Below, one piece after another: positions 2 to 19,468 of a stretch of 22,936 nt of DNA. This DNA is from Bacteroidota bacterium (GTDB taxonomy: Bacteria > Bacteroidota > Bacteroidia > Bacteroidales > GCA-2748055). The notes below the pieces were generated by a model. It was not told the DNA's origin. It did not search any database and saw nothing but the letters and a program-made list of their open reading frames with translations. The stretch covers positions 1 through 22,936 of the forward strand of contig JAAEOI010000343.1 of assembly GCA_024244665.1 (NCBI GenBank). Reading direction: 5' to 3'. The translations under genes were made by a program, and so were the position numbers. Positions within the stretch are counted from its first letter, which is position 1. Each line of letters begins with the position of its first letter.

Positions 2-1546
2 CCCTTCTCCAAAAAGAGTCGGGCTTCCTACCTGTTTAATTACAGATACTCAACATTTGGGCTGATCAAACCCATACTGCCTCCTGAAGCCAGCATTCCC
101 ATTTATCAGGACCTCAGCCTGAAGATCAATGTTCCCACTAAAAAGGCCGGGGTATTCTCTCTATGGGCATTGGGTGCCGACAATAATATCACATTTGAAG
201 CTGAAACCGATACTTCCATGTGGAGTTATGAGGGGAACCAAATATTTGGTGAAGCAAGTCAGCGCATGGCAGCTATTGGACTTAATCACCGGTTTATAAT
301 TGGGCAAAAAACCTACCTCAACACATCATACGGTCTTACAGGAGATTTCACCAAATATGATGTCGGTATGATGGATATAAATCTAAACCGCTACCCTACT
401 GAGCATATTGATTATGTGAATCATAAACACAGTTTCACATCAAATCTCAATCATAAATTCAGTGCCAGGCATGCTAACCGGACAGGCTTTGTAATAAATA
501 ATCTTCACACAAATACAATTTTGAAGTATGCTCCCTCATCAGGTGAAAACCTGATTACTTCTATGGACGAAAACAGCAGCACCATGCAATACAGGGTCTA
601 TTCACAATCCAGGTTCAACCTTGGCAACAAGCTGAAGCTAAATGCAGGTATACACGGCCAGTATTTTGCACTGAACAATGAACTGATCGTTGAACCCAGG
701 GTTGGGGTCACCTACCAGGCTACCAACCGGCAAGCTATTACCCTTGCATATGGGAAACACTCAAGACTGGAACCATTAAGCATCTATTTTGCACAGGTGG
801 AAACCGAAAGTGGTATCGATCATCCCAACAGGAACCTGAATCTTTCAAAGGCGCATCATTTGGTACTTGCCTATGACGTCAGTCTGAATCAAAACCTACG
901 GTTGAAGATCGAACCCTACTTACAATTGCTTTATGATATCCCGGTGGTTCAGGACAGCAGTTATTCAACCATTAATATGGAGGCTGACTGGTTTTTTACT
1001 GAGAAACTCAATAATTCCGGAACCGGTACAAATCTCGGGATTGATGTGACACTCGAACGCTTCCTTTTTGATGGATTCTATTACCTGATTACAGCTTCCC
1101 TGTTTAATTCGACCTACAAGGGGGGGGACAAAATTGAAAGGAATACCAGGTTTAACTCCAACTATGTTTTCAATGTACTGTTTGGCAAGGAGTGGGTGCT
1201 GGGCGCCACAAAGAACCGGATCCTGGGCGTCAATGGCCGTCTCAATGTACTGGGAGGACAGAGAATGACACCTGTAGATGAAGAGTTGTCTTACCGCTAT
1301 GGTGAGATCGTTTATGACCACTCTCGTACATTCGAGGACCAGTTCCCTATGGTTTACCACCTCAATGCCTCCATCAACTATCGCATAAACAAAAGAAAAC
1401 ATTCAAGCATCTGGTCACTTCAGGTCATGAATGTACTTGGTAGCGAGGAGAACTATGGATACAGGTACAATTACCGTACCGATGCCATTGAACAGGATGT
1501 GGTAACAGTGGTTGTTCCCAGTATCAGTTACAAAATCGAATTTTGA
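2..1546 (+). CDS. TonB-dependent receptor, C-terminal part (5' end outside window)
   Basis: The frame is open from the first complete codon at position 2 to the TGA at 1544-1546, so the gene enters from the left and about 514 residues are visible. The start (RASYLFNYRYSTFGL...) resembles the plug-to-barrel region of Bacteroidota TonB-dependent receptors with a carboxypeptidase-regulatory-like N-terminal domain. The rest alternates aromatic and polar residues as in outer-membrane beta strands, and ends in a strand with C-terminal phenylalanine (SISYKIEF), the usual OmpA/BamA-recognised ending. It should sit in the outer membrane and import a substrate with TonB energy, or serve as a related outer-membrane barrel. 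Plug domain, signal peptide and promoter lie outside the window, so the substrate cannot be guessed. An in-frame ATG-like start at 170 is internal, because the homologous sequence continues upstream of it. No SusD-like partner follows. Confidence 0.85.
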   Translation, partial: PFSKKSRASYLFNYRYSTFGLIKPILPPEASIPIYQDLSLKINVPTKKAGVFSLWALGADNNITFEAETDTSMWSYEGNQIFGEASQRMAAIGLNHRFIIGQKTYLNTSYGLTGDFTKYDVGMMDINLNRYPTEHIDYVNHKHSFTSNLNHKFSARHANRTGFVINNLHTNTILKYAPSSGENLITSMDENSSTMQYRVYSQSRFNLGNKLKLNAGIHGQYFALNNELIVEPRVGVTYQATNRQAITLAYGKHSRLEPLSIYFAQVETESGIDHPNRNLNLSKAHHLVLAYDVSLNQNLRLKIEPYLQLLYDIPVVQDSSYSTINMEADWFFTEKLNNSGTGTNLGIDVTLERFLFDGFYYLITASLFNSTYKGGDKIERNTRFNSNYVFNVLFGKEWVLGATKNRILGVNGRLNVLGGQRMTPVDEELSYRYGEIVYDHSRTFEDQFPMVYHLNASINYRINKRKHSSIWSLQVMNVLGSEENYGYRYNYRTDAIEQDVVTVVVPSISYKIEF

Positions 1547-1612
1547 TCACAATCTCTCTTTGTCACGATCAAATAGTTTGGACCCTGGAATCTGATAATA
1601 CCACATCCGGAG

Positions 1613-1880
1613 GTTCTGTCGCATCTGTTCAATAATTCACTAAAATATTCAATTAAATCCCATTCTATGCAGCTAAAGAAGAAGCTGAGTTGAACATACT
1701 TTTTATTGAGTATTCAGTTGATTCTTCTTAATCATATGGACTATCTCAATCCCTGTAATTGTTCTTCTTGCTGACTCAAATTCCTTGAATCCTATGTCCT
1801 GTTGTATCCACTAAATGTTATGTTTAGTTCTGCATTAAACTACAGAAATTAAGGATATAACTCTATAGATGTGACAGAAC
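1613..1880 (-). mobile_element. decayed, internally deleted IS6-like insertion sequence (MITE-sized, 268 bp)
   Basis: The gene-free gap 1547-1965 contains an inverted repeat: GTTCTGTCGCATCT at 1613-1626 and AGATGTGACAGAAC at 1867-1880 match in 13 of 14 positions. The left end resembles IS6/IS240-type termini (GGTTCTGTTGCA-like). Between them, on the minus strand, lies the C-terminal end of an IS6-type transposase (1703-1810). The bases just outside, ATCCGGAG (1605-1612) and ATCAAGAC (1881-1888), agree in 5 of 8 places, compatible with an eroded 8-bp target duplication but weak. Only about 70 bp remain between the transposase fragment and the right end, so most of the gene has been lost and the element cannot move by itself. 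I see no other gene in this gap. Confidence 0.65.
1703..1810 (-). pseudogene. IS6-family (IS240-type) transposase, C-terminal remnant
   Basis: The minus strand has an open stretch of 35 codons, bounded upstream by a stop, that includes GFKEFESARRTITGIEIVHM followed by IKKNQL and a stop. This matches the recognisable tail of IS6/IS240 DDE transposases (LGFKxFxxAxxTxxGIExxHMIKKGQ). No start codon and no catalytic DDE region remain, so this is a fragment only. It lies inside the inverted repeats described for 1613-1880, about 77 bp from the left terminal repeat, which is where the 3' end of such a gene belongs. Confidence 0.7.
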
Positions 1881-1965
1881 ATCAAGACGTTAATAGTAAA
1901 CCAAATACTTGACCCGAAAGAGTTTTTAAAGTAACTTCTCTCCTTATTCTTAAAACCCAAGTACT

Positions 1966-3612
1966 ATGAAACGAATTGGACTCATCCTGATGACCATTAT
2001 TTTAGTCGCTTTACCTATGTTTTCCCAGAATGTAAATATCCCTAATGCAAACTTTCTAGCTGCGCTAATCGAAAAAGGTATTGATACTAATGAAGATGGA
2101 CTGATTAGTACTACTGAAGCTGAAGTAGCAACCTATTTAGATGTGAGCGCAAAGAATATCTCAGATATGACAGGCATCGAATCATTTATTAATTTGGATA
2201 CTCTGGTATGCCATAATAACCAGTTAACCAGTCTGGATGTTTCTAATAATATTGCTTTAGAAAGTTTGATTTGTTTTACAAACAGATTGACCAGTCTGGA
2301 TGTTTCTAATAATATTAAATTATCAAAATTGGATTGCGGGATTAATCAATTAACCAGTTTGGATGTTTCAAAAAATATGGCTTTAACATCTTTATCTTTT
2401 GTTGCAAACCAATTAACCAGCATTGATGTTTCTAACAATACTGCTTTAACATCTTTACATTGTCGTGCAAACCAATTAACCAATTTGGACTTTTCTAATA
2501 ATGTTGCTTTAACATTATTGAATTGCTATGCAAACCAAATAACCAGCTTGAATGTTTCGAATAATATTGCTTTAAAGAGATTATTTTGCTTTGGAAACCA
2601 ATTAACCAGTTTGGATGTTTCTAATTGTACTGCTTTAGAAGAATTAGATTGCTTTGAGAACCAATTAACCAGCCTTGATGTTTCTAATAATAGTGCTTTA
2701 TGGGAATTGGGAGTCAGTGATAACCAGTTAACCAGTCTTGATGTTTCTAATAATACTGGGTTATTAGAATTGTGGGTCAGCAATAACCAGTTTTCCAGCA
2801 TTGATATTTCAAATAATTCTTCTTTGGTATCATTATTCTGCAGTGAAAACCAATTAACCAGTCTGGATGTTTCTAATTGTATTGATTTACTTGAATTGTA
2901 TTGCTCTGATAACCAATTAACCAGTCTGGATGTTTCTAATAATGCTGCCATAGAATATCTGTATTTATCCAATATGCCAACCTTATATCAAGTATGCGTA
3001 TGGGAATTGCCTTTCCCTCCAATTAGTGTGAATCTTGATACAACAGGAAGCCCAAATGTTTATTTCACTACTGAGTGTTCTGATAATATTGCACCCAATA
3101 TTCTGGCAGCTGACAACCTTTATCAACCTGTATATATAGCGGCTACAAGCTCAGAAGATGGAATGATTTATCTGGTTCCCGAGAATACTGAGAAAGATAT
3201 TGGTATAATTCGAGGTGTAAGTATAGATTCTGTTGAAGCTGTGGCTAATTCTCCTATAAATATTTCCATTTCCAGCTTAGACAATGGTAAATTTTGGCTT
3301 TACGCAAGAGATTCTACCGGTAACATTTCCGAACCTAAAGCATTTACTATTATGGGAGTGGGAGTTGACTATAAAAAAGCTGAAAATGTTAGGATTTACC
3401 CCAACCCCACTGATGGTATACTAACCATCAATACGGAGAATCCAAATAATACAAGTATCGAAATTACCTCGCTGAACGGTCAAAAGATACTTATTGGAGA
3501 GATGGAAGGAACCTCTCACCAACTCGACCTCTCACCATTCCAGAAAGGAGTCTATTTCATCACCATCAGGTCAAAGGACTTTGTAACAATTAAGAAGATC
3601 ATCAAGTTGTGA
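1966..3612 (+). CDS. secreted leucine-rich-repeat protein with EF-hand-like loop and type IX secretion sorting domain
   Basis: A 548-residue protein. Residues 1-21 are a Sec signal peptide (MKRIGLILMTIILVALPMFSQ). Residues 40-51 (DTNEDGLISTTE) match the calcium-binding EF-hand/dockerin loop DxNxDGxIxxxE. Residues 75-326 are twelve 21-residue leucine-rich repeats of the type L..L.C..NQLTSLDVSNN, followed by a half repeat. Residues ~370-465 look like an immunoglobulin-like beta domain. Residues ~472-548 (VRIYPNPTDGILTI ... GVYFITI) form a type A Por/T9SS C-terminal sorting domain, so the protein should cross the outer membrane by type IX secretion and be surface-anchored or released. The role is probably adhesion or protein binding, with no specific ligand evident. 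The gene is clearly more AT-rich than its neighbours and lies beside an IS remnant, which may mean transfer. The start has no Shine-Dalgarno sequence. Confidence 0.88.
   Translation: MKRIGLILMTIILVALPMFSQNVNIPNANFLAALIEKGIDTNEDGLISTTEAEVATYLDVSAKNISDMTGIESFINLDTLVCHNNQLTSLDVSNNIALESLICFTNRLTSLDVSNNIKLSKLDCGINQLTSLDVSKNMALTSLSFVANQLTSIDVSNNTALTSLHCRANQLTNLDFSNNVALTLLNCYANQITSLNVSNNIALKRLFCFGNQLTSLDVSNCTALEELDCFENQLTSLDVSNNSALWELGVSDNQLTSLDVSNNTGLLELWVSNNQFSSIDISNNSSLVSLFCSENQLTSLDVSNCIDLLELYCSDNQLTSLDVSNNAAIEYLYLSNMPTLYQVCVWELPFPPISVNLDTTGSPNVYFTTECSDNIAPNILAADNLYQPVYIAATSSEDGMIYLVPENTEKDIGIIRGVSIDSVEAVANSPINISISSLDNGKFWLYARDSTGNISEPKAFTIMGVGVDYKKAENVRIYPNPTDGILTINTENPNNTSIEITSLNGQKILIGEMEGTSHQLDLSPFQKGVYFITIRSKDFVTIKKIIKL
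2188..2943 (+). repeat. twelve tandem 63-bp repeats encoding the leucine-rich repeats
   Basis: Each unit is 63 bp (21 codons), and the part encoding NQLTSLDVSNN is nearly the same at DNA level in most units (for example AACCAATTAACCAGTCTGGA). Two units end in Cys instead of Asn (SNC) and one unit diverges (NQFSSIDISNN). Such close DNA similarity favours gain or loss of units by slippage or recombination. The repeats also keep long antisense frames open (2526-2972), which are not genes. Confidence 0.9.
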
Positions 3613-3968: not shown

Positions 3969-3975
3969 CCTTTTG

Positions 3976-4049
3976 TAGCGAGAGGGAGACTTGAACTCCC
4001 GACCTCATGATTATGAATCATGCGCTCTAACCACCTGAGCTACCTCGCC
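3976..4049 (-). tRNA. tRNA-Met (anticodon CAT), elongator type
   Basis: The minus-strand sequence folds as a complete 74-nt cloverleaf: acceptor GGCGAGG with TCTCGCT (two G-U pairs), T8-A9, D stem GCTC/GAGC, anticodon stem CATGA/TCATG with loop TTCATAA (anticodon CAT), five-base variable loop, T stem GGGAG/CTCCC with loop TTCAAGT, and discriminator A. The 3' CCA is not encoded. The first acceptor pair is G-U and the anticodon stem lacks the three G-C pairs of initiators, so this is elongator Met rather than fMet. An Ile-CAT (lysidine) tRNA is less likely but not excluded. A promoter and terminators flank it. Confidence 0.95.
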
Positions 4050-4175: not shown

Positions 4176-6122
4176 ATGGAAAGCGGAATACAGGAGATGC
4201 ATAAGGTTTTGGAGCTACTCATATACCTGAGTGCCTTCGGGATTGTTGCTGTAGCTGCACGGAAACTGGCGGGTGTTTTTCAGAAGTTTAAACTGCCCTT
4301 GATTTCCGGATTCCTGGTCATAGGGATCATATCGGGTCCGGAGGTGCTTGGGTTGATTGAGCCGGAAACGCTGAATGGACTTAACTTCCTAAATGACGTG
4401 GCCCTGGCATTCATTGCTTTCGCTGTGGGATCTGAGCTCTATCTCAACGAACTCAGGAGCCGCATGAAAAGCATTATCGCCATGACCATCAGTCAGGTCG
4501 TGGTTACCTTTCTTCTGATGAGCCTGGCCATGTACCTCCTGATGGATGTAATCCCCTTATTTTCCGGGATGAAACTTGGTCCCAGGATTTCCATATCCAT
4601 GCTGGCAGGGGTGGTGGCCATTGCACGTTCCCCGGCTTCAGCCATTGCGGTGATTAATGAGTTGCGGGCCCGTGGGCCTTTTACCCAGACTTCCATTGGG
4701 GTTACTGTGGTTAAGGATTTTGGAGTGGTGATCTTTTTTGCTATAATGTTCACCCTTTCCAAATCCCTGATCCAGGAGGCCGAATTCAGAATGATCTACA
4801 TTGTCCAGGTCCTTGTTGAGCTGATTGTCGCCTTCGGACTGGGCTTCCTGGTCTGGTTGATCCTGAGGCTGGTGCTGAAAATTAAGGGAATGCTGCCTCT
4901 CAAGAAGCTGCTGGTCCTGCTTTCCGGCTTCATGGTATACATGTTTACCCATGTGACTGCCGATCACTCCAACCAGTACCTGGGAATGGAGCTGCATATC
5001 GAGCCGTTGCTCACATGTATCATTGCAAGTTTCCTGGTGACCAACTTCTCGGTATACCGTAACGATTTTGTAAAGATTGTGAAGGAGCTGGGACCCTATG
5101 TTTATGTGGTGTTCTTCACCCTTACCGGGGCAATGGTTTCTCTAAGTGTGGTTGCGGCTCTCTGGTTCGTGACCCTGATCCTTTTTGGAGCACGGGTGAT
5201 CTCCCTAATCCTGGCCGGTTACCTGGGAAGCTCCTTTGCCGGTGATCCTCCCCTGTTCCGCAGGATATCGTGGATGCCCTATGTTACCCAGGCCGGGGTG
5301 GGGGTAGGGCTGGCAACCATTATTGCCTCTGAGTATCCCGGTTGGGGAGGTGTATTTGCCACAGTGATGATTTCTGTGATTGTCCTCAACCAGATTGTGG
5401 GACCGCCACTGTTCAAATGGGCGCTGCACCTGGCCGGTGAGGCCCACGTGAAATCGGATGGTACGGTTGATACGGAGCGCAAGATTCTGATCTTTGGTTG
5501 GGAGAGCCAGTCAATAGCTCTGGCCAGGCAGCTTCAAAAACAGAAATGGAACGTGGAGTTTGTGGTGCCCGATCCTGCAGCTGATGTCCTTGGGAATAAG
5601 GATTATATAGTACATGAATACTTGGGGCCCGGACACCTGGACCTGAGGAAATTCAGTGCCGAGACAGCCGATACTCTTGTTTGCCTGCTATCCGATGAAG
5701 AGAATTATGCCATTTGTGAAACTGCTTATGAGCATTTTGGAACCAAGCACCTGATCACCAGGCTGCATGAGCGGGAGTATTATAAGAAATTTATGAAGAT
5801 AGACGTGATGGTGGTGGATCCCAATTCAGCCATGGTTTCCCTGCTTGAACACTTTATCAGGGCACCAATAGCCACCTCCCTCTTGCTTGGAATGGATGAA
5901 ACCCAGGATTCCATCGATATCGAATTGAGAAATTCCGATTTCCATGGACTCACCCTGCGCGACCTCAGGTTGCCTGCCGATGTGATCATCCTCTCTGTAA
6001 CACGGGGCGATCATCCGATCATTTCTCACGGCTATACCCGGCTCAGACTTGGTGATATTGTAACCATGGTTGGTTCCAATATGAGCCTTGATAAGGTGAG
6101 GCTAAACCTGCAGGGCTATTAG
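4176..6122 (+). CDS. CPA2-family monovalent cation:proton antiporter with C-terminal TrkA-N/TrkA-C domains
   Basis: A 648-residue inner-membrane protein. Residues ~10-420 hold about twelve hydrophobic helices in the KefB/CPA2 pattern (GFLVIGIISGPEVLGLIEP near the N-terminus). Residues ~435-555 resemble a TrkA-N nucleotide-binding domain (ERKILIFGWESQSIALARQL) and ~575-645 a TrkA-C domain (TLRDLRLPADVIILSVTRGD). The likely role is Na+ or K+ efflux against protons under nucleotide control. The usual GxGxxG of the TrkA-N loop is replaced by GWESQS, so NAD binding may be altered. The helix that normally has the ND/DD transport pair shows K180-D181. A second possible start lies at ATG 4197; 4176 is preferred because GGGAGGAG lies 4 bases upstream. 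The gene is divergent from the tRNA and seems monocistronic. Confidence 0.85.
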   Translation: MESGIQEMHKVLELLIYLSAFGIVAVAARKLAGVFQKFKLPLISGFLVIGIISGPEVLGLIEPETLNGLNFLNDVALAFIAFAVGSELYLNELRSRMKSIIAMTISQVVVTFLLMSLAMYLLMDVIPLFSGMKLGPRISISMLAGVVAIARSPASAIAVINELRARGPFTQTSIGVTVVKDFGVVIFFAIMFTLSKSLIQEAEFRMIYIVQVLVELIVAFGLGFLVWLILRLVLKIKGMLPLKKLLVLLSGFMVYMFTHVTADHSNQYLGMELHIEPLLTCIIASFLVTNFSVYRNDFVKIVKELGPYVYVVFFTLTGAMVSLSVVAALWFVTLILFGARVISLILAGYLGSSFAGDPPLFRRISWMPYVTQAGVGVGLATIIASEYPGWGGVFATVMISVIVLNQIVGPPLFKWALHLAGEAHVKSDGTVDTERKILIFGWESQSIALARQLQKQKWNVEFVVPDPAADVLGNKDYIVHEYLGPGHLDLRKFSAETADTLVCLLSDEENYAICETAYEHFGTKHLITRLHEREYYKKFMKIDVMVVDPNSAMVSLLEHFIRAPIATSLLLGMDETQDSIDIELRNSDFHGLTLRDLRLPADVIILSVTRGDHPIISHGYTRLRLGDIVTMVGSNMSLDKVRLNLQGY

Positions 6123-7434: not shown

Positions 7435-7984
7435 ATGAAATCAATTCTTTTAATGTCAGGTCTTCTGCTCTTTGCCACGCAGGTTTTCTCACAGACCAAG
7501 GTGGTCAGTGGAGAGCTGACTGCTTTTAACAGCTACCCGGTTGCAAATGTAAAGGTCTATTCAAAAAAAGCAAAGGCCACTGTGACCACAGATTCCATTG
7601 GAAAGTTTCAGATTGTCTGCATGGAGAAGGACATGCTCGTTATAAAGAGCGAGGTTTTCACGCCTCTGAACCTGAGGGTTGGTAAAAAAAAATTCTGTAA
7701 AGGCTAACCTGGAGTCCGAAAACAATGGTTTTTCCAACTACACTGATGTCCTCGACATGATCAAGGGTAAGTTCTCCGGGGTGGAGGTGAAAAGTTCCCC
7801 ATCAGGTGGGCAGGGGGTTTATGTCCGGGGCCAAAAATCTTTAACGGGGGTAACTGGAGCCTTGTACGTGGTTGCCAGCGATATAGCGAGTATAGATATC
7901 CTAAAAGATGGCGGTGCAGCCATATATGGCTCCAGAGGTGCCAACGGAGTTGTGGTAATAGAAACAAAAGCTCTCATAAAATAG
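7435..7984 (+). pseudogene. barrel-less TonB-plug domain protein, frameshifted copy
   Basis: The first 80 codons encode a signal peptide (MKSILLMSGLLLFATQVFSQ) and a carboxypeptidase-regulatory-like domain closely matching the next gene (VVSGELTAFNSYPVANVKVY). In a run of nine A (7684-7692) the frame breaks; the other frame then continues with the plug-like part (NYTDVLDMIKGKFSGVEVK ... AAIYGSRGANGVVVIETK) to TAG 7984. Eight A would restore one frame. Even so, compared with its downstream paralogue it lacks about 35 residues at the junction and about 11 residues after ALYVV, where the paralogue has DGGITNNIEWIHP. That combination points to a decaying duplicate. Alternatives are a sequencing error in the homopolymer or transcriptional slippage giving a short functional protein. 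Confidence 0.7.
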
Positions 7985-7989
7985 TAATT

Positions 7990-8667
7990 ATGAATTTGAA
8001 ATCCAGAACAATTCTGTCGTTGCTCCTTTGTTCAGCGCTGATGGTCGGGGCCCAGACCCGTGTGGTTTATGGGAAAGTTACTGCCTACAACCAGTATCCA
8101 CTTCAAAATATCCAGGTGATTGCCAAAAAGAGCAAGGCAGCGGTAAAGACCGATTCACTAGGCATGTTCTCAATTGTCTGCATGGAGAAGGACGTTATAA
8201 AAGTCAAGCCAAAAGCCTTCATGTCTGCCACCAGGAAAGTTGGGTCCCATTCGGATACGCTGCTGATCAACCTTGTATTTATCGACAATAAATCGAATCG
8301 AGAACTAGCCACAGGCTATGGCTACATTAATCAGAAGGATCTTGCTTATGCAGTGAGCCATATGCAGCAGGAGAATAACGATTTTTGTAACTACCAGGAT
8401 ATTTTTGAGCTCGTCACAGGTAAGTTTCCCGGGGTAATTGTCAGCAATAAATCAATTCAAATCAGGGGGGCCTCATCCATTAATTCGAGCACTGAGGCCC
8501 TTTACGTGGTTGATGGGGGAATTACCAATAACATCGAATGGATCCATCCCTGTGATGTATATTCTGTAGATGTGTTAAAAGATGGAATGACCGCTATTTA
8601 CGGAAGTCGGGGGGCCAATGGAGTAATTGTCATTGAGACCCGGCGTGGCCGGCATCAGGCTCCCTGA
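7990..8667 (+). CDS. stand-alone TonB-dependent-receptor plug-domain protein (no barrel)
   Basis: A 225-residue exported protein: signal peptide 1-21, carboxypeptidase-regulatory-like beta domain ~23-97 (TRVVYGKVTAYNQYPLQNIQ), linker, then a plug domain ~135-218 with the usual motifs GKFPGV, IQIRGASSI, ALYVVDGG, VDVLKDG and AIYGSRGANGVIVIET. A SusC-type receptor would continue with ~700 residues of barrel, but here the reading frame ends within ten residues of the plug. The protein should be periplasmic or associated with the inner face of the outer membrane. Similar short plug proteins are annotated in Bacteroidota without an established function; binding TonB or a partner barrel is an inference. 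It starts 5 bp after a broken paralogue and so belongs to a tandem duplication. Confidence 0.8.
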   Translation: MNLKSRTILSLLLCSALMVGAQTRVVYGKVTAYNQYPLQNIQVIAKKSKAAVKTDSLGMFSIVCMEKDVIKVKPKAFMSATRKVGSHSDTLLINLVFIDNKSNRELATGYGYINQKDLAYAVSHMQQENNDFCNYQDIFELVTGKFPGVIVSNKSIQIRGASSINSSTEALYVVDGGITNNIEWIHPCDVYSVDVLKDGMTAIYGSRGANGVIVIETRRGRHQAP

Positions 8668-12886: not shown

Positions 12887-14323
12887 ATGTCACATATCAG
12901 CATCAAATCAAAATTATCAAAGCTTTCTTTACGCGAATTTTACAGCGACCTGCGTGAAGCCATTGGCGGGTCGGAGCAGGATTTTACGCGGATCCCCCTG
13001 AGCAAGGCCATCGTACTTCTCAGTATCCCCATGGTCCTTGAAATGATCATGGAATCGGTATTTGCCCTGGTGGATATCTTCTTTGTCTCCCGCCTGGGGG
13101 CAGAAGCGGTGGCAGTCGTGGGGATCACTGAGTCTCTGATGACCATTATCTATGCTATCGGGATAGGCCTGAGCGTGGGAACCACTGCGCTGGTCGCCCG
13201 GCGTATTGGGCAGAAGCGACCAGAGGAGGCTTCGGTAGCTGCAGTTCAGGCCATCTTTACCGGGATTGTAGTTTCACTCCTGTTTTCGGCGGTCGGGATT
13301 TTCTTCTCAAAGGATCTTCTGCGACTCATGGGCGCATCTGAGCCTACCATTGAAATGGGTTACATGTATCCGGCCATTATGCTGGGAGGAAACAGTGTAA
13401 TCATGCTGCTCTTCATCATCAATGCGGTTTTCAGGAGCAGTGGTGATGCGGCGATCTCCATGAGGGTGCTGTGGTTTGCCAACATTCTAAACATTATCCT
13501 TGATCCCCTGTTAATTTTTGGTATCGGTCCATTCCCGGAACTTGGTGTTAAGGGAGCAGCCGTGGCCACGAACATAGGCAGGGGTATGGCAGTTGTATAC
13601 CAACTCTACCTTCTGGGTAAGGGCAATCACAGGGTAAAAGTAAGGGCACGGCAGGTTGTTATCAGGTTAAGTGAGGTTGTCCGGCTGGTCCGGCTCTCAC
13701 TGGGGGCCATCGGACAGTATATTATCGCCACCTCCTCGTGGATCTTCCTGGTCTGGGTGGTTACCAGCCTGGGCGAAGAAGTGGTGGCCGGCTATACCAT
13801 TGCCATACGGATCCTGTTGTTTGTATTGTTGCCTTCCTGGGGGATGGCCAATGCAGCAGCCACACTGGTTGGACAAAACCTGGGAGCTGACAGGCCTGAC
13901 CGTGCTGAACGTGCGGCATGGGTGGTTGGTATCGCGAACATGGTTTTTCTCGGACTCGCTTCGGTTTTTTTCATAGCGTTTACCGAAAGCTTCATCGGCT
14001 TTTTTGTAGGAGTTGCAGACGAGCCAGTGGTATTTCAAAATGGAGTGACCTGCCTGCGTATTGTCAGTTTTGGTTTCCTTATTTATGCCATGGGGCAGGT
14101 GATGGTTAACTCCATCAACGGAGCCGGTGATACGGCTACCCCGGTATGGATTAACTTTATCGCTTTCTGGCTTATGGAGATTCCGCTGGCTTACCTATTT
14201 GTGAAGGTGTTTGGACTGCAGATCAATGGGGTCTGTTATGCAATCCTGATTGGAGAGGCTGCACTTACCTTTATTGCCATTGCCATTTTCAGGCGGGGCA
14301 AATGGAAGCTGAAACAAGTTTAA
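12887..14323 (+). CDS. MATE-family multidrug/sodium antiporter
   Basis: A 478-residue inner-membrane protein. A ~40-residue cytoplasmic head (MSHISIKSKLSKLSLREFYS) is longer than in NorM. About twelve transmembrane helices follow in two six-helix halves. Family signatures include PMVLEMIMESVFALVDIFFV, SRLGAEAVAVVGI, FRSSGDAAISM and the mirrored second-half motif NSINGAGDTATPVW. It should export cationic or organic compounds in exchange for Na+ or H+, but the drug or metabolite is not predictable. It is followed only 2 bp after its stop codon by a heptamer-repeat array, and no terminator is seen. Confidence 0.9.
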   Translation: MSHISIKSKLSKLSLREFYSDLREAIGGSEQDFTRIPLSKAIVLLSIPMVLEMIMESVFALVDIFFVSRLGAEAVAVVGITESLMTIIYAIGIGLSVGTTALVARRIGQKRPEEASVAAVQAIFTGIVVSLLFSAVGIFFSKDLLRLMGASEPTIEMGYMYPAIMLGGNSVIMLLFIINAVFRSSGDAAISMRVLWFANILNIILDPLLIFGIGPFPELGVKGAAVATNIGRGMAVVYQLYLLGKGNHRVKVRARQVVIRLSEVVRLVRLSLGAIGQYIIATSSWIFLVWVVTSLGEEVVAGYTIAIRILLFVLLPSWGMANAAATLVGQNLGADRPDRAERAAWVVGIANMVFLGLASVFFIAFTESFIGFFVGVADEPVVFQNGVTCLRIVSFGFLIYAMGQVMVNSINGAGDTATPVWINFIAFWLMEIPLAYLFVKVFGLQINGVCYAILIGEAALTFIAIAIFRRGKWKLKQV

Positions 14324-14325
14324 TT

Positions 14326-14395
14326 CAGTACTCAGTAGACAGTACTCAGTACTCAGTAGACAGTGCTCAGTGCTCAGTACTCAGTGCTCAGTGCT
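14326..14395 (+). repeat. heptamer tandem-repeat array 1 (10 perfect units)
   Basis: Ten uninterrupted 7-bp units of CAGTNNN. In order, the last three bases are ACT, AGA, ACT, ACT, AGA, GCT, GCT, ACT, GCT, GCT. The array starts 2 bp after the MATE stop and ends 120 bp before ATG 14516. It is nearly the same, unit for unit, as the array at 18432. It is not CRISPR (no spacers). The apparent coding extension of the next gene through this array (start at 14363) is an artefact. Confidence 0.95.
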
Positions 14396-14466
14396 GTGTG
14401 TGAGGTAGATGGGGAGTTCTTGAAACTTTTTTTGTGGGAGCTGCAACTATTTAATGCAGGTTTCGT

Positions 14467-14500
14467 ATTGTTAAGAGAAGAATTTAAGCACTTATATTTA
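14467..14500 (+). promoter_or_regulatory. candidate promoter of the DUF3857/transglutaminase operon
   Basis: ATTG (14467-14470), 22-base spacer, TATATTTA (14493-14500), one base off TAnnTTTG. It lies 15 bases before ATG 14516, so the mRNA would have a very short leader. Confidence 0.4.
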
Positions 14501-14515
14501 ATCCAAATCCCCAAC

Positions 14516-16408
14516 ATGAAAAAGCTTGTCTCTGCAAGTCTTCTGGTGATGCTTGTATCCTCACCTCTGATCTCCCAGAAGGCTCCAATGAAATTTGGTA
14601 AAGTTTCCAACGAGGAAGTCGCATCGAAATATTATGAACCCGATTCCACAGTGGATGCTGTGGTGCTATGTGAGTATGGAGTGTTTGACCCTGAAGGACT
14701 TAGTTTCAGCCACACGGTTCGTTATAAAATCTACAGTAAAGAGGGTTTGAACAGCCTGATTATGTCAATTCCCGTAAGCTCCAAATCAGAAGTAAAGGGA
14801 ATGGTCTATAATATGGTTGGTGGAAAAGTGGAGAAGTCGAAGCTGACCAAGGAATCAATTTATCAGGAACGAGTGATCGGGAGCTATTCAAGATTACGGA
14901 TTGCCCCGCCCGATGCCAAGGAGGGATCGGTTATCGATATCAGATATACAATGCAAGGCTTGCCTTCTGAGTGGAACTTCCAGAAAACCATCCCGGTTCT
15001 CTGGAGTGAACTTGTGATTCCCTACAGCGAGTATTTTTCTTTCAATAAGAATTTTATAGGTTATGAGCCTTTGTCAATTGGTTCTGCCAACAGATGGGTA
15101 GCCAAGGATATGCCTGCATTCCTCCCTGAGCCCTATGTTAATTCCAGCAACAACTACATGACGACCATGTTCCTGGAGATATCTGAAATCCATATTTCTG
15201 GACAGGGAAGCGGAACAGGTTATTATGAGAATTTGTCTTCAACCTGGAGTGACGTGTCAGAATACTTTTACGACCATGATCATTATGGTGTGATACTAAG
15301 GGGGGGAGATGGTTATCTGAGTAAGCTTGCTGATTCTGTGAGGGCTCAGTCAGAGTCGGATCTGGACCTAATGGTGAATGCCCTTGCACAAATTCGCAAG
15401 GATATCAAATGGAATAAGAGAGAGCGACTTTTTCCCTCAGGTATGTTGCGGGATCTTTATCTGAATGATAAAACCGGAAGCTCTACCGATATGAATTTCC
15501 TTTTTATGAAATTGCTGAGGAAACTGGATATCGAATGTTACCCGATGCTGATCCGTACCAGGGATGAAGGAATTGTCAATACCCGTTTTCCATCCCGCTC
15601 CAGGTTTAATTATACACTCTCGTATGTGAAGGTTGGTGACCAATACCATATCATTGACGCAGCCGATAAGTATTACGAGCATGACCTGTTGAGGCTAAAC
15701 TGCCTGAATAATTCCGGATTTGTTGTCAGGAAGACGAATCCTGAATGGGTTGAAATTAAGCCCGATAAGAAAAGAACTAAGATAACCAATGTTATGTTGG
15801 ATATCAGTGAAGATGGTTTTATTGAGGGGAATATGAATGTCCAGCATAGCAATTATGCCGCAGCTTCCTTCAGGAAATTACAGGAAAATTATACGACCCA
15901 GGATGAATACCTTGAGGATTTCGAACAGGATAATTCCGGTTTTTTTGTGATGGAGTATTCGGTGAAAAACCTTGACGAGGAACAGGGGATTATTACAGAG
16001 ACCTTCCAGGTTGAAATTGATGGAAATGCCAATGTCACGGGGGGGATGATTTACCTGAATCCTGTGATGATCGATCACATGGAGGAGAGTCCTTTTAAAC
16101 TTGAGGAGAGGGAATATCCGGTTGATTTTGGGTATGCCAGGAATAAAATGTACATCATGTCAATGAATATTCCCGAAGGAATGGTGGTTCATCAGCTTCC
16201 CGCACCTATGAAGCTGGTTACCGTTGACAAATCAGGTAGTTATCTATACAATATTACTCAATCCGGCAGTACAATTCAGATCATGATCAAGATGACCACC
16301 AATAAACCGCAATACCTGCAGTCAGAGTATGAGGAGCTCAGGGCATTTTTCAGCATTATTGTGAACAAGGAGTCGGAACCTATCATTTTAAAGAGAGCGA
16401 ATCCATGA
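14516..16408 (+). CDS. exported DUF3857 protein with inactive transglutaminase-like domain
   Basis: A 630-residue protein starting at ATG 14516, where a signal peptide begins (MKKLVSASLLVMLVSSPLIS); starts further upstream would run through the heptamer repeat. Residues ~45-215 match a DUF3857 beta domain and ~280-390 a transglutaminase-like fold. The three catalytic places can be located by alignment with the next gene: Cys becomes S323 (GSSTDMNFLFMKLLRKLDIE), His becomes Y366 (RFNYTLSYV), and only the acid D381 (YHIIDAADKY) remains. It is therefore predicted to have no thiol-type activity. A C-terminal beta domain follows (~420-630). Its last bases overlap the next start (ATGA), so the two are translationally coupled. 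It may bind peptide or partner its active neighbour in the periplasm (inference). Confidence 0.8.
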   Translation: MKKLVSASLLVMLVSSPLISQKAPMKFGKVSNEEVASKYYEPDSTVDAVVLCEYGVFDPEGLSFSHTVRYKIYSKEGLNSLIMSIPVSSKSEVKGMVYNMVGGKVEKSKLTKESIYQERVIGSYSRLRIAPPDAKEGSVIDIRYTMQGLPSEWNFQKTIPVLWSELVIPYSEYFSFNKNFIGYEPLSIGSANRWVAKDMPAFLPEPYVNSSNNYMTTMFLEISEIHISGQGSGTGYYENLSSTWSDVSEYFYDHDHYGVILRGGDGYLSKLADSVRAQSESDLDLMVNALAQIRKDIKWNKRERLFPSGMLRDLYLNDKTGSSTDMNFLFMKLLRKLDIECYPMLIRTRDEGIVNTRFPSRSRFNYTLSYVKVGDQYHIIDAADKYYEHDLLRLNCLNNSGFVVRKTNPEWVEIKPDKKRTKITNVMLDISEDGFIEGNMNVQHSNYAAASFRKLQENYTTQDEYLEDFEQDNSGFFVMEYSVKNLDEEQGIITETFQVEIDGNANVTGGMIYLNPVMIDHMEESPFKLEEREYPVDFGYARNKMYIMSMNIPEGMVVHQLPAPMKLVTVDKSGSYLYNITQSGSTIQIMIKMTTNKPQYLQSEYEELRAFFSIIVNKESEPIILKRANP

Positions 16409-18309
16409 AAAAGCTGCTATCCATGCTGATCTCAGTTTTCATTGGGACAACAGTTTCAGCATCAGACATAAAATATCCCTGTAATACCATCTCAGAAGAG
16501 ATGAAGACGGCCTCCCGGGCAGTGGTCAGGAACCAGGAGGAGAGCCTGGTCATTAAAACAAACGGAGCCATAGAACATAAGACAGTGTATGCCATTACTG
16601 TGTTGGAGGAGAATGGGGAGGGCCTGGCCACATTTTATGGCCCGTATGACAAGTATTCCAAGCTTAGAGGGGTTACCGGACGGATTTATAATTCTGAGGG
16701 TGAACTCGAGGAGACCCTCAGGGGTGAGGATATCCTGGATATGAGTATGATTGCTTCCTACAGCCTTTATGAAGATAACCGTATAAAGATCATCGATCCT
16801 GAATTCCATGAATATCCCTATACAGTGGAGTATACAATCAATTACATGCTCAAGAGTTTCCTGGATATTCCCGATTGGCGAATATACCCTGCTTATAATG
16901 TGTCTGTTGAAAAGGCCTCTTTCAGTGTGACCGCTTCCGGGGAGGATGACTTCAGGTACTTCATGCAGAACATGGAAATTAAGCCCCTTATAAAACTGGT
17001 GAATAATGAGAAAAAATTCACATGGGCCGTTGAAAACATGCCTGCCCTGGTCAGTGAGAGTCTTTCAGGATCCCTTCAGGATGTGTCGCCTGTACTATAC
17101 ATTGGTCCAAATGACTTTGATTATGGAGGTAAGGCTGGAAATATGAGTTCATGGAAGGAGTTCGGGGCGTGGATTTACGAGCTGGGTGAGGACAAAAGGG
17201 ACCTGTCCGAAGTTGAGGAAGCACATATACAGGGGCTGGTCAGTGACCTGGATGAAAACAGGGAAAAGGTGTCGGTACTCTATAAATATATGCAGGATAA
17301 AGTTCGTTATGTGAATATCACTCTGGGTATTGGAGGATTTGAACCCATTGAAGCCAGTGTGGTGAGTGAGGTGGGTTACGGCGACTGTAAAGCGTTGTCA
17401 AATTATATGCGGTCCATACTCCATACTGCGGGCATTGATTCCCGGTACACCCTTGTAATGGCGGGCCGTTCACCCCGGGAGTTCATCCCGGATTTCCCCT
17501 CCCAGCAATTCAACCATGCCATCCTGGCTGTCCCTATGCAAAAGGACACCATGTGGCTGGAGTGTACCAGTCAAAGGTTGCCGGCTGGATACCTGGGTTC
17601 ATTTACCGATGACAGGCCGGTATTGCTTGTTTCTGAGGAGGGTGGTGAGTTGGCCCGTACTCCAAGGTTTACTCCGGCCGACAATAGCTGGGTATTTAAA
17701 GCTCGCTGCACGCTGGATGAAACCCTGGGGGCAGAAATTTCCAGTTCTAAAGAATACCGTGGAATCTATTTCGGTTCAAAGCAGTCGGCCATCCTGAACA
17801 GAGATCAGGAAGAGCAGAAACGATCGATCCAGAACAGGATGAGACTCAGCGGATTTTCAATCGATGGATTCAGTTATGATGAAAAAACAAATTCTGACCT
17901 GGTAATTACCGAATCCGCCAGCATCACAGTGAAACAGATGATTTCGCCCGAGGGTGAGTTTCTACCTCTGGACCTAAGTGTGTTATCCCCTGAACTTGAT
18001 ATGCCGGGGAGGTCCAGGAACCGCAAATACCCGGTTCTCATCCGAAGGGGTTACCTTGAGTTGGACAGCATCACCTTTGAACTGCCTGATAACCTGGATA
18101 TACATGCACTTCCCGATCCGGTTCTCATTGAAACCCCATACGGCAAATATGAGACTTCGGTGCAGGCAAATGGAAAGGAACTTACCTATTACAGGTACCT
18201 GATTCTTAACGACGGTACCTGGCCATCCGGGCAGTTCAGGGACCTGTACAAATTTTTCAGGCAGGTCAGTTCGGCCGATAAAAGAAAAGCTTTACTGGTC
18301 AGGAAGTGA
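16405..18309 (+). CDS. exported DUF3857/transglutaminase-like protein with catalytic Cys-His
   Basis: A 634-residue protein with a signal peptide (MKKLLSMLISVFIGTTVSAS). DUF3857 spans ~40-215. The transglutaminase-like core at ~285-410 has C328 in VGYGDCKALSNYM, H371 in FNHAILAV, and the acidic position in MWLECTSQ (E386 where many relatives have Asp). A beta-rich C-terminal domain is present at ~420-620. Proteins of this fold are cysteine proteases, peptide cyclases or transglutaminases acting outside the cytoplasm; the substrate is unknown. Its start overlaps the stop of the preceding, catalytically dead homologue, so an active/inactive pair is made from one mRNA. Array 2 of the heptamer repeat starts 122 bp after its stop. 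Confidence 0.82.
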   Translation: MKKLLSMLISVFIGTTVSASDIKYPCNTISEEMKTASRAVVRNQEESLVIKTNGAIEHKTVYAITVLEENGEGLATFYGPYDKYSKLRGVTGRIYNSEGELEETLRGEDILDMSMIASYSLYEDNRIKIIDPEFHEYPYTVEYTINYMLKSFLDIPDWRIYPAYNVSVEKASFSVTASGEDDFRYFMQNMEIKPLIKLVNNEKKFTWAVENMPALVSESLSGSLQDVSPVLYIGPNDFDYGGKAGNMSSWKEFGAWIYELGEDKRDLSEVEEAHIQGLVSDLDENREKVSVLYKYMQDKVRYVNITLGIGGFEPIEASVVSEVGYGDCKALSNYMRSILHTAGIDSRYTLVMAGRSPREFIPDFPSQQFNHAILAVPMQKDTMWLECTSQRLPAGYLGSFTDDRPVLLVSEEGGELARTPRFTPADNSWVFKARCTLDETLGAEISSSKEYRGIYFGSKQSAILNRDQEEQKRSIQNRMRLSGFSIDGFSYDEKTNSDLVITESASITVKQMISPEGEFLPLDLSVLSPELDMPGRSRNRKYPVLIRRGYLELDSITFELPDNLDIHALPDPVLIETPYGKYETSVQANGKELTYYRYLILNDGTWPSGQFRDLYKFFRQVSSADKRKALLVRK

Positions 18310-18431
18310 GGTGTTTTGGGTAAAAATTCGTAAATTCCGGCCGTAATGGGATCATACAATCCACATACCAGCCTGTGCCACTCCTTCGGCATCGGACTCT
18401 ACGAGTGTTGGATGTTCTATTGTTAGCAATA

Positions 18432-18501
18432 CAGTACTCAGTAGACAGTACTCAGTACTCAGTAGACAGTACTCAGTGCTCAGTACTCAGTACTCAGTGC
18501 C
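18432..18501 (+). repeat. heptamer tandem-repeat array 2 (9 perfect units plus 1 variant)
   Basis: Units of CAGTNNN with endings ACT, AGA, ACT, ACT, AGA, ACT, GCT, ACT, ACT, GCC. The first five units are identical in order to array 1, and the rest differ only by ACT/GCT changes and the last base. It lies between the transglutaminase operon and the glycyl-radical activase, ending 24 bp before ATG 18526, in the same orientation as array 1. Confidence 0.95.
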
Positions 18502-18525
18502 CATTTACCTTTTTACCCATTTTCA

Positions 18526-19326
18526 ATGCCAGCGGCAAACATATTCGATATCAAGCGATTCGCTGTACATGACGGTCCCGGGATCCGTACCACGGTTTTC
18601 CTGAAGGGTTGCCCCTTAAGGTGCTGGTGGTGCCACAATCCTGAAAGCCAGTCGGTAAAGCCGATTACTGTGGATGTGGAGAGGAAGCTGAGAGGGAAGA
18701 GTGTTATGGGGAAAAAGACCTATGGTGAGCTTGTTGAGATTGAAGAGTTATATGGCAGGCTGGAAAGGGACCGGCTCTTTTATGAAGAGTCGGGTGGCGG
18801 AGTTACCTTCTCCGGAGGGGAGCCCCTGATGCAACCGGAGGCACTTGAAGCCCTGCTGAGGGCCTGTGAAAGTGGCGGACTGCACACAACGGTGGATACC
18901 TGTGGATTTGCTCCACGGGAACATTTTGAGGGGATTGTTGATTACACCGGGCTCTTTCTTTATGACCTGAAGAATATGGATGCCAAGATTCACCGGGAGT
19001 ACGCAGGAGTGGATAACAGCCTGATCCTCTCAAATGCCGATTATCTGCTTGAGAAGGGGGCCAGGGTGATTTTCCGGATTCCGGTGATCCCGGGGATCAA
19101 TACCGGTGAGGATGAGTTAAAGCGTTTCCTCTCCTATGTGGAAGAGCGGAAGGACCACCTGGAGGAGGTGCACCTGCTGCCCTACCACCGGATTGCGGGG
19201 AATAAGTATTCGAGGCTGAAGCTGGACCAGAAGCTTGAGCATGTAAAAGAACCCGGGCAGGACTTTATGGAGGCCCTTTCGGAGCGGTTCGGGGCTACCG
19301 GACTAATGATTTCTGTTGGAGGATAA
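18526..19326 (+). CDS. glycyl-radical-enzyme activating protein (PflA-like radical SAM)
   Basis: A 266-residue radical SAM enzyme. The 4Fe-4S cluster motif CxxxCxxC is at C29, C33, C36 (GCPLRCWWCHNPES), after the activase signature FDIKRFAVHDGPGIRTTVFL. The SAM-binding GGEP is at 97-100 (VTFSGGEP), and the later motifs TVDTCGF, YDLKNMD and IPVIPGIN are present. It should use SAM and an electron donor to create the glycyl radical on a partner enzyme such as pyruvate formate-lyase. The segment between the cluster and GGEP has no cysteines, so the ferredoxin-like insert found in many non-PFL activases is missing. The partner gene begins 16 bp downstream but is broken after ~23 codons, so this activase has no intact partner here. 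The product is probably oxygen-sensitive and the host anaerobic or facultative. Confidence 0.88.
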   Translation: MPAANIFDIKRFAVHDGPGIRTTVFLKGCPLRCWWCHNPESQSVKPITVDVERKLRGKSVMGKKTYGELVEIEELYGRLERDRLFYEESGGGVTFSGGEPLMQPEALEALLRACESGGLHTTVDTCGFAPREHFEGIVDYTGLFLYDLKNMDAKIHREYAGVDNSLILSNADYLLEKGARVIFRIPVIPGINTGEDELKRFLSYVEERKDHLEEVHLLPYHRIAGNKYSRLKLDQKLEHVKEPGQDFMEALSERFGATGLMISVGG

Positions 19327-19342
19327 CAAAAAATAGAGTGAA

Positions 19343-19468
19343 ATGACTGAAAGAATAGAGAAATTAAGAGCGGCGAGCCTGCAGGCCGTAAATACTATTT
19401 CGGCCGAGCGTGGACAGTGCTCAGTGCTCAGTTTTTTTTTGGTGAATGAAAGGTGGATATCTCCCTGA
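19343..19468 (+). pseudogene. glycyl radical enzyme (PFL-like), N-terminal stump
   Basis: ATG 19343, 16 bp after the activase stop, opens MTERIEKLRAASLQAVNTIS and AER, which is the typical first ~23 residues of a glycyl radical enzyme (pattern RIxxLRxxSLxAxxxISxERA). From codon 24-25 (19412-19417) the sequence becomes heptamer repeat plus a run of nine T, and a stop appears at 19466-19468. The remaining ~750 or more residues, including the active-site Cys and C-terminal glycine loop, are absent from the window. The original operon was probably activase followed by its enzyme. The identity rests on a short N-terminal match only. Confidence 0.6.
19415..19435 (+). repeat. heptamer repeat, short copy 3 (2 perfect units plus partial)
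   Basis: CAGTGCT CAGTGCT CAGTTTT, running into T9. It has the same orientation and unit type as the arrays at 14326 and 18432. It lies precisely at the break in the glycyl-radical-enzyme reading frame. Confidence 0.8.

Follow-up and report, generated by a model that had tools for sequence, protein, structure and literature searches.

Why should three arrays of the same 7-bp unit stand within about 5 kb of one another, all between genes and all in one orientation, with two of them sharing the order of their units? The question is raised by a 22,936-nucleotide stretch of a Bacteroidota bacterium (contig JAAEOI010000343.1, assembly GCA_024244665.1; hereafter the window), whose arrays are built of CAGTNNN heptamers. 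The answer that we favor, with a probability of about 0.72 judged from sequence comparison, is that these are gene-less single arrays ('solo arrays') of a CAGT-type IVP element, i.e. of a small mobile-element family in which a gene for an IVP protein (PF05635, 23S_rRNA_IVP, 'four helix bundle protein') lies between two inverted heptamer arrays.

As the original prediction had claimed, the three arrays keep an exact 7-bp register on a common strand (+), and all are intergenic (Table 1): array 1 starts 2 bp downstream of the MATE stop codon, array 2 separates the DUF3857 and radical-SAM activase-like genes and ends 24 bp upstream of the ATG of the latter, and array 3 begins 88 bp past the stop codon of this radical-SAM gene. 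The triple CAGTN3CAGTN3CAGT has 17 matches in the window compared to 0 in 100 dinucleotide shuffles. In a period-7 scan at the stricter threshold of 16/21, only the three array places score, whereas at the same threshold control lags of 5, 6 and 8 score nowhere, and lags of 9 and 10 give one hit apiece. Between arrays 1 and 2, 67 of 70 bases are identical, and 7 of 10 units coincide in register; the common unit order, another claim of the prediction, was confirmed by permutation (p = 0.005 for identity, p = 0.002 for the first five units and p = 0.008 for the best offset). The 60-bp flanks of the two arrays match at 19/60 positions on the left and 7/60 on the right, which is about background; therefore, the common stretch is the array itself.

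Arrays of this kind are dispersed through many Bacteroidota genomes, so that the notion of a dispersed family is borne out. Within the GTDB contig collection, the exact 18-mer CAGTACTCAGTAGACAGT was found in three stretches, from Flavobacterium tibetense, a Salinivirgaceae metagenome-assembled genome (MAG) and Aestuariivivens insulae (genomes G001, G002 and G003, respectively), and these genomes contain 18, 227 and 74 matches to the CAGTN3 triple compared to 2, 1 and 7 for the reversed-pattern control. Within their arrays, CAGT is constant and NNN varies widely; the Salinivirgaceae array reached through the 18-mer reads TAG-TGG-ACT-AGA-GCT, with ACT, AGA and GCT in common with the window. Slippage-type expansion also shapes the CAGTNNN family: genome G219 contains long homogeneous arrays (repeated CAGTGTT, CAGTAGA or CAGTGCT) at C1:805094, C3:129489 and C2:449158. 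The proposal that the arrays go beyond slippage thus stands in part, given that slippage as the sole cause is rejected by the unit order and by the empty sites described below, whereas slippage does act as well. As a separate observation, the reversed control TGACN3TGACN3TGAC has itself 240, 107 and 125 matches in genomes G072, G078 and G093, which points to another abundant heptamer type, TGACNNN.

In G001, G002 and G003, there are 5, 15 and 14 matches to PF05635, respectively. The set of PF05635 loci analyzed here comprises 119 loci from 41 genomes, namely 30 of these 34 matches, 29 new loci and 60 further loci among the matches listed; the matches passed over include some that ranked lower in the list or lay close to a contig end or to a locus already chosen. 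Among the first 30 loci, six have CAGT pairs within 400 bp, whereby, in locus coordinates, CAGT is read on the + strand in the left-hand array and on the − strand in the right-hand array. Across the whole set, a period-7 array was detected within 250 bp upstream of the gene at 71 loci, downstream at 85 and on either side at 93, compared to 6/115 and 2/115 in control stretches 1 kb away; other lags (4–6 and 8–12) gave 2 to 25 loci, and lag 14 resembled lag 7, of which it is a multiple. Two-armed loci (n = 63) span 421 to 710 bp (median 484), and their arms are more alike in inverted orientation in 57 cases, in direct orientation in 5, with one tie; arm similarity (5-mer cosine) is 0.34 for arms of the same locus compared to 0.06 for swapped arms. 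A complete element consists of one gene, encoding a protein of about 120 residues, between two inverted heptamer arrays. The linked gene that the original prediction had envisaged is therefore found in the IVP gene; the array alone, which had been taken as the unit, gives way to an IVP gene between inverted arrays, whereas the appearance of whole arrays at new sites is retained. At the RNA level, the duplex of a locus' own arms is stronger than the mean of ten swapped duplexes in 60 of the 63 two-armed loci, and the element of locus L044 (G003) folds with a terminal array stem (z = −6.7).

The type of heptamer goes with the subfamily of the protein. Across the 93 loci, in pairs from different genomes, protein identity correlates with array similarity (r = 0.40 over 4,124 pairs; 0 of 2,000 permutations above 0.085). 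Inward CAGT pairs are present at 16/16 loci with at least 50% identity to the L044 protein and at 0/102 loci below this value; other subfamilies carry, by eye, GTTTCxx, GCTTTAx, GAAGCAT, AATTGAT, GAGAAAA, CAAGAAT or GTATTGA. The same association was observed between genomes, using a CAGT-IVP protein model (A2; a hit is E ≤ 1 × 10−30) and genome lists compiled by hand. In the family of G003 (60 genomes), CAGTN3 triples occur in 16/16 genomes with an A2 hit compared to 17/44 others (Fisher p = 1 × 10−5; Mann-Whitney p = 6 × 10−7), and in the order of G002 (119 genomes), in 23/27 compared to 31/92 (Fisher p = 2 × 10−6; Mann-Whitney p = 3 × 10−8); species are not independent, and therefore these genome-level p values overstate the case.

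Not all CAGT arrays accompany a gene. In a survey of 20 stretches chosen for holding arrays, together with the window, 41 clusters of at least three CAGT units were identified, none of them within an open reading frame (ORF) of at least 150 aa, such ORFs making up 79% of the DNA. Adjacent clusters within 200 bp of each other are oriented inward in 8 cases, outward in 1 and along one strand in 11. The inward gene-less pairs look like miniature elements; one of these, in the Salinivirgaceae MAG (L211, 4779–4816), lies between ORFs matching FtsA and FtsZ. Partnerless arrays of a single orientation are found in G002 and G003 as well, and the window arrays are of this one-strand, partnerless sort. 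They would fit as solo arms because of their heptamer, their register, their intergenic position and the company in which such arrays are found elsewhere.

Occupied and empty orthologous sites were compared for presence or absence with empty relatives, which involved gene-plus-arrays units at five sites and a gene-less array at a sixth. The L044 element of G003 is absent in two congeners in which both flanks are present (~70 and 86 bp separating the aligned flanks, compared to ~490 to 510 bp with the element); in a third congener, the left flank alone was matched, and a related IVP sequence sits elsewhere. The comparison with relatives envisaged in the original prediction was made for a solo CAGT array of G003 (L193), and the region, including a neighboring second heptamer array, is missing in all three congeners; L193 was judged on its array 1, its array 2 being located in a several-kb stretch without a counterpart in the congeners, and the flanks of the gene-less pair L198 likewise have no counterpart there. 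At L193 (~5930–6020), a second heptamer type, GATTGAA/GATTAAC, directly adjoins the CAGT solo array, and one element may be nested in another of a different heptamer type, or both types may use common insertion sites. An IVP element in one plasmid of Nostoc sp. UHCC 0302 is absent in two sister plasmids (96% and 92% identical in aligned pieces). In the comparison with the 96% plasmid, identity extends without a break up to each junction; the element takes the place of 21 bp of the empty site, and no target duplication was detected at this best-resolved site. In a Nostoc MS1 plasmid (L213), compared to Trichormus variabilis and Nostoc NIES-3756, the element begins directly after a stop codon, and the leader of the next gene seems to be kept on its far side. 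In two other Nostoc plasmids (L214/L216), compared to four empty relatives, the ~38-bp leader between TAG and ATG is replaced, and in Leptolyngbya, compared to a single, more distant relative, Allocoleopsis, the element is inserted between an overlapping stop and start codon. Thus, the target leader is replaced at two of these sites and apparently kept at two others.

Plasmid loci connect these elements with the intervening sequences (IVS) of 23S rRNA genes. A tblastn search with the L044 protein matched 37 plasmid records, 36 of them cyanobacterial, and ten loci were inspected. By eye, the G-rich arrays on the two sides of the gene have inverted orientation in 8 of the 9 cyanobacterial loci, whereas in Oscillatoria (L219) they run in the same direction. 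In the sole non-cyanobacterial record, a plasmid of Azospirillum lipoferum 4B, the IVP gene is located inside a 23S rRNA gene (Rfam LSU match 283–3339), flanked by inverted GACAGAG/GACGGAT heptamers. The Coxiella IVS, as described in the excerpts of PMC4990558, has tandem heptamers upstream of its ORF, with a repeat number that varies by strain, a 28-bp terminal stem and, where the first repeat begins, an RNase III site. On the strength of the Azospirillum copy and the Coxiella data, we conclude that classical IVS and the intergenic elements share their build, a PF05635 ORF between inverted terminal repeats folding into a long stem. They differ in that the present elements are intergenic, often number several per genome, have arrays that go with the protein subfamily and are accompanied by dispersed gene-less arrays, inverted pairs and empty sites. 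The window itself holds no insertion within an rRNA gene, its sole Rfam match being a tRNA at 3976–4049.

Among solved structures, the relatives of IVP include Xcc0516 (2gsc), a pentameric four-helix-bundle protein, and 2rld, the closer of the two. A bAvd-like match was obtained for the L044 protein at 40.7 bits (cut-off 40), with two other tested IVPs below the cut-off; homology of IVP and Avd is mentioned in the excerpted text of PMC10053308. The accessory Avd proteins of diversity-generating retroelements thus belong to a family related to IVP; the difference is that no reverse transcriptase match was found in the tested IVPs or in 17 ORFs neighboring arrays. The IVP proteins tested have no match to Y1 transposase families either, and none of 21 pattern matches to IVP relatives in viral contigs was confirmed. 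'23S rRNA IVP' is also named in the legend of a CRISPR-association figure (excerpt of PMC10910872); our guess is that this mention may reflect heptamer arrays mistaken for CRISPR arrays.

Several known repeat families resemble these arrays in part. In REP/RAYT systems, short inverted repeats enclose one gene, and copies lacking the gene are scattered over intergenic DNA, a build shared with the elements described here. However, Y1 transposase families are not matched by IVP, which is accompanied by tandem heptamers rather than single REPs, and no Y1 transposase gene flanked by repeats was found among the 17 array-neighboring ORFs and 10 window ORFs (2 in each group without a Pfam match). STRR are dispersed heptamer arrays of heterocystous cyanobacteria, plasmids of which also carry IVP genes between heptamer-like arrays; a link between STRR and IVP is a lead suggested by this analogy. 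TAACTGA repeats are reported from Beggiatoaceae, Cyanobacteria and Bacteroidetes (MacGregor 2015, PMC4679880, in part); these 7-bp arrays, too, lie mostly between genes, have a patchy occurrence across distant phyla, occupy positions specific to the strain and are missing from some relatives. Read on the other strand, tandem TAACTGA is CAGTTAT, a CAGTNNN unit, and the window fits this class only, since its NNN are ACT, AGA, GCT, GCC and TTT, never TAT. The original prediction that no mechanism had been described for heptamer arrays in Bacteroidota holds to the extent that such arrays are already in print, with no mechanism found in the excerpted part of PMC4679880; nowhere in the text of that paper do the terms 'four helix', 'S23' or 'intervening' occur. 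In the open-access papers searched, none was found that ties dispersed heptamer arrays to IVP proteins.

Several observations weigh against assigning the window arrays to IVP elements or weaken the link between array and protein. The membership of the window arrays in the IVP family would follow from likeness, and a CAGT-type IVP in the window organism is putative. There is no inverted partner arm in the window, every CAGT pair being on the + strand, and no IVP gene was detected by six-frame hmmsearch (best E = 0.57, without a positive control); self-folding of array 1 as RNA is not significant (z = −1.6). The closest relative by the DUF3857 protein among 198 genomes is only 38% identical (G049; next best within its family of 3 genomes, 36%), the protein database including relatives at 64% identity; G049 has an A2 hit (E = 6.9 × 10−48), but no array was seen at that locus, and its triples number 6 compared to 8 in the control. 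Because the window lacks an IVP gene, we speak of gene-less single arms and not of an element, and the missing gene, the missing inverted arm and the lack of support from G049 keep the probability from being higher. In the wider data set, 26/119 IVP loci have no period-7 array by the test; at seven loci lacking a period-7 hit (L039, L109, L110, L134, L136, L137 and L156), inward CAGT pairs with 2- or 3-nt spacers are nonetheless present. The 50% identity threshold was chosen after the data had been seen, and six members were first noticed through their arrays; at 45% and 40% identity, CAGT pairs are found at 16/17 and 16/19 loci, respectively. The match of subfamily and heptamer is looser in Bacteroidales: 24 of 30 A2 loci, all high-scoring, were scored for arrays, with inward CAGT pairs at 11, other heptamers only at 5 and none by either test at 8, four of which begin within 300 bp of a contig start. 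Conversely, at least 10 triples are present in 14 genomes without an A2 hit at the above threshold, the richest being G093 (491, control 125), G211 (107, control 0) and G086 (87). Agreement between proteins and arrays can also come from co-inheritance without recognition. Finally, TACTAAG is found on both sides of the element at L213, where a degenerate target duplication is possible.

The first alternative is that different machinery, for example a Y1/RAYT-like transposase or the integrase of another element, stands behind the arrays, with the IVP gene as a passenger. Two points count in its favor: we know of no catalytic function of IVP proteins, and at four of the nine loci from cyanobacterial plasmids (L214, L216, L217 and L222), the IVP element is followed directly by a gene for a tyrosine recombinase/integrase. 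However, the recombinase gene is present in the four empty-site relatives of L214/L216 as well and therefore seems to be part of the target there; as a helper at these loci, the recombinase was rejected. No transposase, recombinase or reverse transcriptase family was matched among the 17 array-neighboring ORFs (2 without a Pfam match), so that the linked transposase or reverse transcriptase for which the original prediction had allowed did not materialize. Given, in addition, that the subfamily-heptamer match ties IVP to the arrays, we consider this alternative improbable. A second possibility is that the arrays are cis-regulatory RNA- or DNA-binding sites near start and stop codons, kept for gene regulation and not parts of anything mobile. 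Such a role was argued for the TAACTGA repeats of one Beggiatoaceae genome (excerpts of PMC4679880), and the arrays are indeed located in gene junctions, some of them a few bp from a stop or start codon. It appears unlikely, however, because the 17 neighboring ORFs (matches to FtsA, FtsZ, PyrI and TilS among them) have no evident common function, arrays are present or absent between relatives, and such arrays also border IVP genes and the IVP insert in 23S rRNA; a secondary regulatory effect is possible. Local expansion by slippage at chance seeds, with the likeness of arrays due to convergence or gene conversion, is comparably unlikely: long homogeneous arrays do exist (G219), and heptamers are the commonest repeat class in most surveyed genomes (Mrazek 2007, as cited in the excerpted PMC4679880), but constant CAGT stands beside highly variable NNN within one array, unit order is common to window arrays 1 and 2, inverted arrays flank one gene family, and a whole solo-array region is absent in congeners.

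Returning to solo arrays of a CAGT-type IVP element, we propose that the IVP protein would recognize the heptamers of its own element, most likely in the form of the RNA stem built by both arms, and that solo arrays could be what remains once the gene and one arm are lost, or could result from arms being copied. RNase III would cut the stem, which is published for rRNA copies (excerpts of PMC4990558) and is assumed here for mRNA copies. An RNA route of movement is our favored guess; judged by its sequence, the IVP element encodes no recognizable transposase. A much broader conjecture, which we regard as rather doubtful, is that a major share of the dispersed heptamer arrays in Bacteroidota and Cyanobacteria would be arms of one transposase-free mobile superfamily, in which the heptamer stem, in RNA form, is bound by the Avd-like four-helix-bundle protein of the same element, and movement proceeds via this RNA, copied by a trans-acting reverse transcriptase or repair polymerase; the 23S rRNA IVS would then be copies that landed in rRNA genes and were made harmless by RNase III.

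The protein of rRNA intervening sequences has, to our knowledge, had no known function so far. Two puzzles of long standing, rRNA intervening sequences on the one hand and the heptamer arrays scattered through Cyanobacteria and Bacteroidota on the other, are joined by the association described here, which also provides the IVP/S23/four-helix-bundle family with a concrete, testable partner in the heptamer arrays around its genes. The data point to a mobile element that lacks its own transposase gene, occurs several times per genome, inserts at gene junctions and, at the best-resolved site, leaves no target duplication.

Table 1 Heptamer arrays of the window and the genes around them.
Feature	Position	Strand	Description
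Array 1	14326..14395	+	Ten CAGTNNN units: ACT AGA ACT ACT AGA GCT GCT ACT GCT GCT
Array 2	18432..18501	+	Ten CAGTNNN units: ACT AGA ACT ACT AGA ACT GCT ACT ACT GCC
Array 3	19415..19435	+	Short: two CAGTGCT units + CAGTTTT
MatE-family transporter	12887..14323	+	Context, not part of the element
Weak DUF3858 match	14516..16408	+	Context; below Pfam cut-off
DUF3857 protein	16405..18309	+	Context; transglutaminase-core match just below cut-off
Radical-SAM, 4Fe-4S activase-like protein	18526..19326	+	Context
tRNA-Met gene	3975-4049	−	Rfam match at 3976-4049, the only one in the window

Among the 10 window ORFs, none has a transposase match (2 of 10 are without any Pfam match). By eye, the window contains two adjacent paralogous ORF sets, at 7435–7984 and 7990–8667; the first looks frame-split (7435–7707 and 7679–7984), whereas the second is intact (225 aa). 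A 63-bp DNA repeat at 2218–2943 (11.5 copies, 71% matches) encodes a leucine-rich-repeat protein with a Por secretion tail.

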